Virus record (IMG/VR): IMGVR_UViG_3300036832_001037
Coordinates: 1 to 40,611 of that record
Source: a virus
Strand: one strand, 5' to 3'
Length of the DNA: 40,611 nt
Shown: piece by piece, positions 20,946-27,380 of the stretch
Numbering within the stretch: the first letter of the stretch is position 1
Layout: every line of letters begins with the position of its first letter
The notes under the pieces: model-generated
Database searches by the model: none
Seen by the model: only the letters and a program-made list of their open reading frames with translations
Told to the model about the DNA's origin: nothing
Program-made: the position numbers and the translations under genes

Positions 20946-21194
20946 TTACGTCCGTACGTACGTACGTATCCTGCTGGCACTGTAGCGCCTACGGCCGGAC
21001 GGAAGCGTCACGTAGTGGCCGTCAGGCGCGCGCACCGGGTCGTACGGCCAGATGCGCCCGTCGTGTTCCCAGCGCGAAAGGGTGCGGATTGAGATACCGA
21101 GCAGCGTCAGCACCTCCCCACGGTGCAGCCCAAACTCGGGTGCTTGCTCGATCGGTTCCTGCTGGAAACTCGGGTGTGTTCTGACCTGGCCCAT
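20946..21194 (-). CDS. Xis/MerR-like small DNA-binding protein, 82 residues
   Basis: ATG at 21194 with GGAGGA five nt upstream. Residues ~25-65 (GEVLTLLGISIRTLSRWEHDG) are a winged helix-turn-helix of the MerR/excisionase type. Adjacent to int and read first, so an excisionase role is likely. Its last residues, RIRTYVRT, are encoded by the CGTACG repeat at 20947-20968, so the site and the coding end overlap. Confidence 0.75.
   Translation of the reverse strand: MGQVRTHPSFQQEPIEQAPEFGLHRGEVLTLLGISIRTLSRWEHDGRIWPYDPVRAPDGHYVTLPSGRRRYSASRIRTYVRT
20947..20968. repeat. CGTACG operator-like repeat, copy 1
   Basis: TACGTCCGTACGTACG followed by TACGTA, covering the end of the xis-like gene and lying 36 bp upstream of the int start. 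The 15-bp core recurs at 26946, 27320 and 27361 in the same orientation. Confidence 0.75.
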
Positions 21195-21254
21195 GCCGTC
21201 CTCCGATGCCTTTGAGTCCGTTCTCCCCGGCGCCAAGCCTACGACTTTTTCTCG

Positions 21255-21609
21255 CTATTTGCCGCCTGTTTCTCGCTTGAAGCGACCTTCGGGGGACCTA
21301 CGGTCAGGGGGTGCCGTGGCGATGGCCGCTGAACGGACATCGGCGACGATCTCGGCGTGTCCTGTCTTGGCCCCAGCTTCGGTGCAGTAGCGGTGTTGGG
21401 CCTGGTCGAGGGGTCCTCCGAACACCATCGTCTCGAAGATCAAGGCGGGTCGAGACGTCCACCCCGTCCACGCAGTCAAAGGCGACGTGGATGTAGCCGA
21501 TGTCCTGGCCGAGCCAGACCCATTCGGCCATCGTGATCTCCTGCCCCTGGCGGTTGAAGAACTGGCCGCGTTTCTCGTGCCGGATGGCGTCGTCGTCGTC
21601 GTCGCTCAC
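21255..21609 (-). pseudogene. Frameshifted small phage protein (LIFETMVFGG family)
   Basis: GTG at 21609 overlaps the previous stop (GTGA). The first frame reads SDDDDDAIRHEKRGQFFNRQ and MAEWVWLGQDIGYIHVAF, up to DGVDVST near 21445. It then leaves the family pattern and runs to a stop at 21304. The other frame (stop at 21255) continues the family: RPALIFETMVFGGPLDQAQH, RYCTEAGAKTGH. In intact members of this actinobacterial family as I recall them, a VWLGLDH-type segment joins the two parts, so a small non-triplet deletion is likely. A programmed shift or an assembly error are alternatives. Confidence 0.65.
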
Positions 21610-21827
21610 GGCTGGCGCCACCACACCACGAGGTTGACGATGAGCAGCTTGCCGGGCTTGTCGTCGGTGACGGTTTTGATCGACGCGGAGTGGCGTTCGC
21701 GGTGGCCCTGCGGGACGGCCGAGTCGATCATCAGCCACGTCGTTTCGAGGCTGCCGTGGGATTCCAGGACGACGCGCGGGAAGCGTTCGGTCTCGCGGGT
21801 CTCGGTGGCTGTTTTCTTGCGGGTCAT
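21606..21827 (-). CDS. Hypothetical protein, 73 residues
   Basis: ATG at 21827, 4-nt overlaps at both ends. Lys/Thr/Glu-rich start, then a beta-type core ending LLIVNLVVWWRQP. No family recognised. Part of the tiny-gene operon read from 27299 to 20946. Confidence 0.6.
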   Translation of the reverse strand: MTRKKTATETRETERFPRVVLESHGSLETTWLMIDSAVPQGHRERHSASIKTVTDDKPGKLLIVNLVVWWRQP

Positions 21828-22177
21828 CCCTGGCGGCGGTGGACGGGGACACCGGCGGCCTTGGCCTTGGTCATCATGTCGGCCGTGCCGGTGCCGCCCT
21901 TGTCGTAGGCGTAGACGATCTCGGGGTTGAGCAAGAGCATCCCGGTGTTGCGTAGCGGCCCGGCTGAGTGGCCGTAGAAGTCCCAGGGGGCGGCGACGAC
22001 GGCGACGAGGAGGCCGATCTTGCGGGCGTGTTCCTCGGCGAGACGGTCGGCTCCTCGGGCGCCGCCGGTGACGACGACGCTGCCGACCGGCAGGGCGTAG
22101 AGGTCGGCGGCGATCGGGAGCGGGTCGTCCCAGTGGCGGCTGCCGCAGAACAGGGCGACGATCGCCACGCCGGTCAC
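21824..22177 (-). CDS. YspA/DUF2493-like SLOG-fold protein, 117 residues
   Basis: GTG at 22177 (GTGA overlap). IVALFCGSRHWDD at the start, VVVTGGARGADRLAEEHAR in the middle and PWDFYGHSAGPLRN later are the signature of DUF2493, the YspA group of the SLOG nucleotide-binding fold. SLOG proteins bind nucleotides or nucleotide-derived signals, and some act in phage-host conflict. The substrate cannot be told here. Confidence 0.82.
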   Translation of the reverse strand: MTGVAIVALFCGSRHWDDPLPIAADLYALPVGSVVVTGGARGADRLAEEHARKIGLLVAVVAAPWDFYGHSAGPLRNTGMLLLNPEIVYAYDKGGTGTADMMTKAKAAGVPVHRRQG

Positions 22178-22377
22178 GGTGTCAGCTCGGCGAGCTTGCC
22201 CCATGAGACGCGCTGGACGTGGACGGTCGACCCGTTGGGCAGGGCGATCGGCTCGATGTGGCGGCGGGTCCAGTAGCGCCCGTGGGTGTCGAAGTAGTCG
22301 GCGACGTCGGCGGCGGCGATGATGGCGATTCGGCTGTGGGTGCCGTCGGGTTTGAAGGTGGTCAGGATGAACGGCAT
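22174..22377 (-). CDS. Hypothetical protein, 67 residues
   Basis: ATG at 22377, coupled at both ends. Short beta strands with a conserved-looking middle DYFDTHGRYWTRRHIEPIAL. No family recognised. Confidence 0.62.
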   Translation of the reverse strand: MPFILTTFKPDGTHSRIAIIAAADVADYFDTHGRYWTRRHIEPIALPNGSTVHVQRVSWGKLAELTP

Positions 22378-22664
22378 CAGGATCTCGGGCGCGGTGTTCG
22401 GCGGGCCATCGGTGGGCGGCGCATCGTCGGCTCGGTCGCGATCAGCTTGAGGTCTCGGGTCAGCGTGTTCTCGTCGCGGTATCCGGCGCCGACGGAGACG
22501 ACGGCCTCGCCGTCGGGCATATCGAACACCATGACGATCGCGGCGCGCTTGAGGTCGGGTCGTCCGTCGATGCCGGTGTCGGTGAAGTGCTCGCGCAGCG
22601 CCGTCAGGACGGCGTGTCCGGCGTGCTGCATGAACGTGTGGTCGAGGCCGTCGTCGCCGGGCAT
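22377..22664 (-). CDS. Hypothetical protein, 95 residues
   Basis: The chosen start is ATG at 22664, overlapping the previous stop by one nt; the longer frame starts inside the upstream gene. The sequence has a HAGHAVLTALREHF helix and a beta core with AAIVMVFDMPDGEAVVSV. It ends with an Arg/Pro-rich tail. Unknown function. Confidence 0.62.
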   Translation of the reverse strand: MPGDDGLDHTFMQHAGHAVLTALREHFTDTGIDGRPDLKRAAIVMVFDMPDGEAVVSVGAGYRDENTLTRDLKLIATEPTMRRPPMARRTPRPRS

Positions 22665-22852
22665 CAGGCGGCCTGGGTGGCGTCGGGGTGCAGGCGTAGG
22701 GAGGCGATGACGTGCTCGTCCTTGTCGAGGTGGGCCAGCTCGATCGTTCCGTCGGACCATTCGGTGAGGGTCAGCGTGTCTGAGTCATCGAGGATGAACA
22801 GGTGGCTGGCGATCTGGGCGCACGCCTCAAGCTGGGGGATGGTGATTCTCAC
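22664..22852 (-). CDS. Hypothetical protein, 62 residues
   Basis: GTG at 22852 (GTGA overlap). Alternating polar/hydrophobic beta-type strands: LFILDDSDTLTLTEW. No family recognised. Confidence 0.6.
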   Translation of the reverse strand: MRITIPQLEACAQIASHLFILDDSDTLTLTEWSDGTIELAHLDKDEHVIASLRLHPDATQAA

Positions 22853-26558: not shown

Positions 26559-26809
26559 CAGATCAGCTCCATCACGTCGTCTAGCGCGGCGCAGTAGGCG
26601 TCGTCTCGGGGGTCGTCGCTAGAGGGCCGGAGGTCCTCGATCTCGTGGCGCAGGATGCCGAAGGCGATCTCGACGTCGTGTAGGGCGTCCACGAGCGCCG
26701 GGGCCTGGATGAGCGTTGGGCTGTGGTCGCGGTCGCGGTATTCGACGGGCGTCCAGCAATGGGCGCGGCGCTTGGCGATGGCGATGGCGACCTCGGAGCG
26801 CAATGTCAC
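26555..26809 (-). CDS. Hypothetical protein, 84 residues
   Basis: GTG at 26809 (GTGA overlap) shortens a longer frame. Starts VTLRSEVAIAIAKRRAHCW, then a helical Asp/Glu-rich part ending ALDDVMELIW. No family recognised. Confidence 0.58.
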   Translation of the reverse strand: MTLRSEVAIAIAKRRAHCWTPVEYRDRDHSPTLIQAPALVDALHDVEIAFGILRHEIEDLRPSSDDPRDDAYCAALDDVMELIW

Positions 26810-27003
26810 CGGGTGGCCTCCTCGATCTCGCGGTGCACACGCCTCAGGGCTTCCTGCAGGCGGACGGCGTGCATCGTGGCGGGAGGGTCGTACCAAAGGG
26901 ACTCATCGCCGCGCTGGGTGCTGACGAGAATCCGCAGATGCCGGATACGTCCGTACGTACGGGCTCGGCGTTGGAGGAGGCGGACGCGTTCGTGCATTCT
27001 CAC
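26806..27003 (-). CDS. Hypothetical protein, 65 residues
   Basis: GTG at 27003 (GTGA overlap). Arg-rich helices; residues ARTYGRIRHLR are encoded by the CGTACG repeat at 26946-26961. It may exist partly because the repeat is free of stop codons in this frame. Function unknown. Confidence 0.5.
   Translation of the reverse strand: MRMHERVRLLQRRARTYGRIRHLRILVSTQRGDESLWYDPPATMHAVRLQEALRRVHREIEEATR
26946..26961. repeat. CGTACG operator-like repeat, copy 2
   Basis: TACGTCCGTACGTACG, inside the 65-residue gene near its start. Confidence 0.7.
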
Positions 27004-27299
27004 TGGCCTTTCGGGACGGCTCGTCCCGATCTCGCGTCGCTACTGGAGGGCCGGTGAAACAGGGCTTGGGCTTTCGTCTTGGGCTCCGGCAGTTTCGCGG
27101 CGACAGACGGCTGCGGGACATCCCGGGGCCAATCGGGGGAATCGACCTCCAACGCCGGAGCCGGAACGCCCGGCGCCAGAAACGCCTCGATCGCCCGTCT
27201 CAACCAAGACGCCCTGGACTCCCTCCCGCGCACCGCGTCAATCCTCCCCAGCGCCTCAGGATCAATCGCGACCTCCAACCTCACGCTCGCCGACGGCAT
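27000..27299 (-). CDS. Ribbon-helix-helix regulator, first gene of the tiny-gene operon, 99 residues
   Basis: ATG at 27299, GGAG six nt upstream. SVRLEVAIDPEALGRIDAVR and ESRASWLRRAIEAFL form a strand and two helices of the Arc/CopG fold, followed by a Pro-rich tail. Copies 3 and 4 of the CGTACG repeat lie 20-80 bp upstream, so autoregulation is likely. As promoter-proximal gene it may control the whole leftward operon and, through copy 1, int. Confidence 0.78.
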   Translation of the reverse strand: MPSASVRLEVAIDPEALGRIDAVRGRESRASWLRRAIEAFLAPGVPAPALEVDSPDWPRDVPQPSVAAKLPEPKTKAQALFHRPSSSDARSGRAVPKGQ

Positions 27300-27319
27300 C
27301 GCTCACTCCAATCTCTCCG

Positions 27320-27334
27320 TACGTCCGTACGTAC
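27320..27334. repeat. CGTACG operator-like repeat, copy 3
   Basis: TACGTCCGTACGTAC, about 20 bp upstream of the ribbon-helix-helix start at 27299; this copy has C where the others have the 16th base G. Confidence 0.72.
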
Positions 27335-27347
27335 CACCCTATCGAAA

Positions 27348-27360
27348 CGACAGGAAACGC
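27348..27360. promoter_or_regulatory. CGACAGGAAACGC site between CGTACG copies 3 and 4
   Basis: The same 13 bases occur at 16030-16042 before the terminase module. It lies between two CGTACG sites upstream of the leftward operon, where a promoter is expected. Confidence 0.55.
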
Positions 27361-27380
27361 TACGTCCGTACGTACGTCCG
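27361..27380. repeat. CGTACG operator-like repeat, copy 4
   Basis: TACGTCCGTACGTACG followed by TCCG, about 60-80 bp upstream of the operon start. Directly adjoins the CGACAGGAAACGC site. Confidence 0.75.

Follow-up and report, generated by a model that had tools for sequence, protein, structure and literature searches.

What is the role of a CGTACG-rich word that recurs four times in one phage operon, and which protein would read it? The question is raised by a viral DNA of 40,611 bases (IMG/VR record IMGVR_UViG_3300036832_001037, analysed as a whole and referred to here as the window), in which exactly four exact copies of the 15-mer TACGTCCGTACGTAC, all on the plus strand, are confined to 6.4 kb of one leftward operon that includes the genes xis and int. 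That these copies represent one regulatory element, common to the operon that controls int and xis and acting as DNA, as an initial annotation of this DNA had proposed, is well supported by their copy number, position, single orientation and independence of reading frame.

Four identical sites in a probable leftward operon

Exact matching in the whole record returned four forward matches to TACGTCCGTACGTAC, no reverse match and none to a reversed control, which confirms the number, positions and common orientation of the copies as first described. The sites are the following:

27361 to 27375, plus strand: site 4, TACGTCCGTACGTAC, non-coding, 61 bp upstream of the RHH1 start codon (ATG)
27320 to 27334, plus strand: site 3, TACGTCCGTACGTAC, likewise non-coding, in the leader, 20 bp upstream of the RHH1 start codon and 41 bp from site 4 (start to start)
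26946 to 26960, plus strand: site 2, TACGTCCGTACGTAC within the second operon gene, codon offset 1
20947 to 20961, plus strand: site 1, TACGTCCGTACGTAC across the last xis codons, 35 bp before the int ATG, codon offset 2

The leftward genes follow each other in the order RHH1, a gene of 65 amino acids (aa), a third gene, RHH2, many small genes, xis and int, where RHH denotes a ribbon-helix-helix-like protein. GTGA overlaps connect RHH1 with gene 2 and gene 2 with gene 3, and judging from spacing and direction the genes probably form one operon. Together with one further gene of the same module, the genes referred to below are:

27000 to 27299, minus strand: RHH1, 99 aa, encoded at the head of the leftward operon, ribbon-helix-helix-like and the favoured candidate binder
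26806 to 27003, minus strand: second gene, 65 aa, with GTGA overlaps to RHH1 and to the next gene
26370 to 26558, minus strand: RHH2, 62 aa, ribbon-helix-helix-like
20946 to 21236, minus strand: Xis-like MerR/BldC-type protein, rival candidate binder
19703 to 20911, minus strand: tyrosine integrase (Phage_integrase, E=9.1e-13; phrog_1, E=2.9e-36)
19050 to 19364, minus strand: HTH_31 repressor-like protein, 104 aa (Pfam HTH_31, E=5.5e-7; phrog_2328 transcriptional repressor, E=2.1e-8), rival candidate binder

The gene positions given initially are correct, and the layout bears out that two copies lie before the operon and one in its second gene. Copy 1, however, is not simply located between xis and int, as had been stated, but covers the last xis codons, with the xis stop TAA at its edge and the int ATG at 20911; it runs on as CGTA repeats up to 20969.

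When up to three mismatches to TACGTCCGTACGTAC were allowed, 15 overlapping matches were obtained in the 40.6-kb record, every one inside the same four places, so that the motif scan for more copies, suggested at the outset as a check, added none. At the same threshold 100 dinucleotide shuffles gave a mean of 0.63 matches and a maximum of 3. TACGTCCGTACGTAC is the most repeated 15-mer of the record and the sole one with a multiplicity of 4, a value reached by no 15-mer in 200 order-4 Markov simulations (top multiplicity 2 in 198 runs and 3 in the other two). Likewise, the only 14-mers with at least four occurrences are the two inside TACGTCCGTACGTAC and their complements, the expectation being near 0.001 or below.

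Every copy consists of the dyad TACGT-CCGT-ACGTA followed by C, whereas the bases outside the 15-mer differ among the copies. The site may also be read in 4-bp units (ACGT-CCGT-ACGT) or in 8-bp units (nTACGTCC-GTACGTAC). As the motif has codon offset 2 in xis and 1 in gene 2, i.e. the two coding copies are translated in different frames, the constraint acts on the DNA and not on the protein, and protein conservation cannot explain the motif. Thus, the remark that the site is also translated (RTYVRT, ARTYGR) holds for two copies, but the likeness of the peptides merely results from the 4-bp period of the DNA. Folding of the four sites as RNA hairpins is weak (-3.7 to -6.8 kcal/mol).

The 4-bp period also suggests functionless repeats produced by tetranucleotide slippage, CGTA being a self-complementary 4-bp repeat. 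Yet slippage would not readily create a CC interruption that is identical, equally oriented and restricted to four separate places, and the rest of the genome showed no frequent CGTA arrays; to this origin, and to integrase arm-type sites as its counterpart discussed below, we assign jointly only a very small probability. The four sites are real at the level of the DNA and in all likelihood regulatory, as a rather ordinary case of phage cis-regulation.

Candidate binders of the sites

We tentatively favour the view that the TACGTCCGTACGTAC sites are operators of a temperate phage regulator, with RHH1 as the likeliest binder. Via the four operators this regulator would control the leftward operon, from RHH1 down to xis and int. 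Sites 3 and 4, at the expected promoter/leader of the operon, would block or modulate initiation, whereas sites 2 and 1, which fall within transcribed sequence and are oriented alike, might tune downstream expression, site 1 doing so just before int. RHH1, encoded by the first gene, would act as an autorepressor whose dimers may read either the dyad or two 8-bp steps. In our estimation the binder is RHH1 with somewhat less than an even chance; HTH_31 is unlikely but a serious candidate, RHH2 and Xis share a still lower probability, and a host factor or another protein accounts for the small remainder.

RHH1 is favoured because of position: two identical sites of symmetric or tandem build lie directly before its gene, and from this position binding of the sites by the two RHH proteins, as initially suggested, is plausible. 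Autoregulating RHH operators such as those of RHH antitoxins show the same arrangement of a first operon gene whose own start carries palindromic or tandem sites, but here two more sites, at distances of about 0.35 and 6.4 kb from the start of RHH1, lie within the operon, the RHH fold is only predicted and no partner toxin was seen. The 8-bp tandem resembles MetJ boxes, MetJ and CopG being autoregulating RHH proteins. For antitoxins, among which RHH proteins are counted, binding to palindromes that overlap the antitoxin's own promoter is described as the usual case (PMC4803016).

The proposed role of RHH1 can be compared with one syntenic contig, L037, a fragment of 20,330 bases whose terminase is 71% identical to that of the window, and in which int (48% over 336 aa), xis (53%) and several small genes between them are kept. 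RHH1 and RHH2 each align with its single RHH-like protein (41% over 34 aa and 45% over 33 aa, respectively), which counts in favour of RHH1 as the binder. L037 contains two isolated CGTACG hexamers, no array and nothing closer than three mismatches to the 14-mer core of the site, i.e. the sole syntenic relative is devoid of the sites, and the many copies at random positions in related genomes that would have spoken against the initial interpretation were not encountered. When the L037 promoter regions were searched for recurring words that might be an operator of its own, only an inverted repeat at 15744-15767 emerged, which resembles a terminator stem. From three further scans only the contig of L037 was recovered; a 26% identical terminase on a Puniceicoccales contig, matched in a genome scan, was of no use for the question.

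Several observations weigh against RHH1 as the binder. RHH1 has no Pfam, NCBIfam or PHROG match (Pfam and NCBIfam remaining empty even at E up to 10), and a fold search with its AF2 model (mean pLDDT 62, helices 14-24 and 29-41) gave one meaningless match. For RHH2, Pfam RHH_1 (E=0.13) and an NCBIfam MazE-family profile (E=0.027) both match below the cut-off; its best PDB matches, mycobacterial MazE and VapB antitoxins, have E values of 2 or more, and structural matches in the PDB reach Z scores up to 3.5, with a root-mean-square deviation of 12.5 at Z 3.5. The AF2 models of RHH2 (pLDDT 73.7, helices 11-21 and 26-39) and RHH1 are alike in having two helices after a short N-terminal segment, which fits the RHH reading, and the N-terminal strand is unformed in both monomer models; its absence is expected if, as in RHH proteins, this strand forms only in the dimer. 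Thus, the two genes of the initial annotation are present at their positions, but the ribbon-helix-helix fold of their products is weakly supported and not established. In addition, a sigma-70 promoter scan of positions 19000-29000 found none, with 1.0 expected, so that promoter positions, including that of the operon start, are deduced from gene starts. Finally, the HTH_31 gene, present here and absent from L037, correlates with the sites at least as well as the predicted binder RHH1, and only one relative was found, too few to show covariation of protein and site.

No RHH1 relative was confirmed in viral contigs. In phages none was convincing up to E=10 (best E 1-2, most of the best 10 of 61 matches lying within DNA polymerase genes), and in plasmids none was found up to E=1. 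Searches of phages gave no RHH2 and, at 1e-3, no HTH_31; a single-sequence search of viral contigs gave no integrase, and Rfam and tRNA searches of the window and L037 yielded nothing.

HTH_31 and the MerR/BldC-like Xis, encoded in the same module, are plausible DNA-binding candidates on a par with the RHH proteins, and by its Pfam and phage-repressor PHROG matches HTH_31 is better supported as a DNA-binding protein than the RHH pair. In a stoperator-like system, a strong rival that we nevertheless rate as rather unlikely, HTH_31 would be the immunity repressor and bind each of the four sites, with transcription blocked at its initiation by sites 3 and 4 and during elongation by sites 2 and 1. 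A 14-bp dyad suits a helix-turn-helix repressor, all four sites share one orientation relative to transcription, within and before genes, and both the HTH_31 gene and the sites are missing from L037; no HTH_31 match was found in L037 or L039 (best tblastn E=0.22), although a gene absent from L037, a fragment, could lie outside the contig. The operators/stoperators of the cluster A mycobacteriophages L5 and TipsytheTRex are similar in that short sites are repeated before and within an operon in one orientation with transcription. According to PMC9283540, repressor sites of the L5 type are located in promoters and in short gaps between genes, their orientation correlates with transcription and their reversal abolishes repression. 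By the same source, L5 has more than twenty sites and a repressor of 183 residues, as against four sites here and the 104 aa of HTH_31. Whereas a stoperator system would show such numbers of asymmetric sites genome-wide, those in the window are nearly palindromic and no more appear at up to three mismatches; no stoperator-domain repressor was found in it, no site precedes the HTH_31 gene itself, and upstream of this gene a different repeat, CGGTACGTC, is located.

Alternatively, Xis or RHH2 might bind cooperatively along the direct repeats, of 4 or 8 bp, in an array that coats them, and thereby autoregulate xis-int, which we consider unlikely. Site 1 overlaps the end of xis, the sites are readable as tandem CGTM units, and Xis weakly matches BldC (E=0.0015, below the cut-off), its L037 orthologue matching the excisionase family phrog_66 (E=0.0017). 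Sites 2-4, on the other hand, are at least 6 kb away from xis, and in L037 no such site is present although its Xis (53% identical) and an RHH2-like gene are retained. Thus, while a single relative cannot separate RHH1 from HTH_31, it speaks against Xis and the RHH2-like protein as conserved readers of the 15-mer.

The candidate attachment region beside int

If the sites were integrase arm-type sites, they should cluster around the attachment core. The region downstream of int matches that of L037 at E=2e-6 between two intergenic regions, and contains:

19641 to 19658, plus strand: candidate attP core TTTGGCTCAACCATGCGA, an identical 18-mer being located beside int in L037 (10115-10132, minus strand)
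19464 to 19704, plus strand: three CGGTACGTC repeats, at 19464, 19686 and 19696, candidate integrase arm sites, unlike the four TACGTCCGTACGTAC sites

In L037 another repeat, GTCGGACGC, occurs six times within 9878-10175 and twice elsewhere, and a tandem pair of it (10156 and 10167) lies on the int side of the 18-mer, as does the CGGTACGTC pair in the window. Thus, the region downstream of int looks like attP with phage-specific arm sites, CGGTACGTC here and GTCGGACGC in L037, although the orientation of the 18-mer with respect to int is opposite in the two phages, so that it is no more than a candidate core. The candidate arm repeats have GTACGTC in common with sites 3 and 4. Nevertheless, it is these repeats of different sequence that surround the shared 18-mer, on the far side of int and in a geometry matching that of L037, whereas the four TACGTCCGTACGTAC sites are 1.3 to 7.7 kb away from the candidate core and hence probably do not serve as arm sites of the integrase.

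A near-copy matching 15 of the 18 letters of TTTGGCTCAACCATGCGA is present at window position 27594 on the minus strand, and an exact 20-bp direct repeat, TGAGCCTAGGTTGAGGGTCC, is found at 27501-27520 and 27548-27567, between site 4 and the gene at 27662-28417. Just before the start codons of int and of rightward genes the sequence CGAGAGGAYC recurs, in the window at 20915 (minus strand), 28441, 28942, 29898, 30238 and 31208 (six of eight matches) and in L037 at 11395 (minus strand), 16781, 17272, 17687, 18089 and 18393 (six of seven). In this it resembles the start-associated sequences described for cluster K mycobacteriophages (PMC3203893). Intergenic stretches after stop codons of L037 (17211-17262, 17595-17660, 17945-18012, 18322-18390 and 18676-18735) contain tRNA T-arm-like GGTTCGAYTCC hairpins, some closed by an outer stem; with z scores of -0.05 to -1.12 they fold little better than shuffled sequences, and no tRNA is predicted there by ARAGORN. 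Similar, strong hairpins lie between rightward genes of the window at 28875-28942, 30160-30230 and 31682-31750 (z -2.85, -3.80 and -2.87), and folding of the intergenic stretch 29810-29880 is not unusual (z -0.81).

CGTM arrays in mycobacteriophages

The 14-mer core of TACGTCCGTACGTAC is present in 32 viral contigs, in eight of which (L005, L009, L020, L024, L025, L027, L030 and L033) it belongs to a longer element, TNCGTNAGT(MCGT)n, that is conserved, occurs in 18 contigs altogether and is followed by short repeats. With its flank the element, TCTNCGTNAGT(MCGT)n, is located in the following contigs, of mycobacteriophages or related to them:

L005, positions 2211-2233
L009, L020, L024, L025, L027, L030, L033 and L041-L050
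L051-L053, the phages Llama, Dori and Tweety

These contigs are partly non-independent, since L025 and L033 have identical flanks and the array position of L045 is that of phage Dori. At the loci inspected for genes (L009 and L030 and, from their annotation, Llama, Dori and Tweety), a replication-initiation gene or a look-alike is close to the element, which is possibly a replication origin; the records of Llama, Dori and Tweety give no function annotation for it. The surroundings of the 14-mer were read in 16 of the 32 contigs in one round and in 23 in another, and repeats were counted in all 32; apart from the eight, no common context was seen among the contigs read. Among 50,697 phage records a 171-bp element query matched 36 (Mycobacterium in 34 cases, Gordonia in two). 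Of 20 records searched, 17 contain a match with no more than one mismatch; G015 has two such places and each of the others one.

These arrays might suggest that a host factor binds the sites of the window and also recognises the (MCGT)n arrays beside mycobacteriophage replication-initiation genes, an explanation that we regard as improbable. The element of Dori, Tweety, Llama and Piper2020 is the same kind of CGTM array, with an identical 14-mer in some contigs, and its relatives in 36 phage records could be taken as support. It differs, however, in being nearly always one array per genome, in its conserved flank TCTNCGTNAGT, missing from the window sites, in its short repeats and in its replication context. 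Furthermore, no convincing genes are shared with the window: of its 298 open reading frames of at least 50 aa, compared with 21 element-bearing loci, one gave a weak match (E=8e-4), a frame antisense to HTH_31. As (MCGT)n is of low complexity, convergence would be easy. The element thus appears to be a feature separate from the TACGTCCGTACGTAC sites that has a CGTM array in common with them, and a link is unproven.

The literature searches returned no paper joining TACGTACG with ribbon-helix-helix and nothing on MetJ/RHH; among the matches listed, the one for TACGTACGGACG concerned a coronavirus, and one for CGTACGTACG and phage concerned plasmid primers.

If RHH1 or another phage regulator indeed acts on the four sites, they would constitute a compact and testable circuit by which an uncultivated temperate phage controls its integration, a small autoregulator working through four identical operators, two of them in genes. 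With far lower probability, tandem MCGT arrays may be the target of one conserved factor in unrelated phages of high-G+C bacteria, serving as int/xis operators here and as a replication-side element in mycobacteriophages. Were this link true, it would point to a DNA-binding factor, so far unnamed, that is common to many phages.

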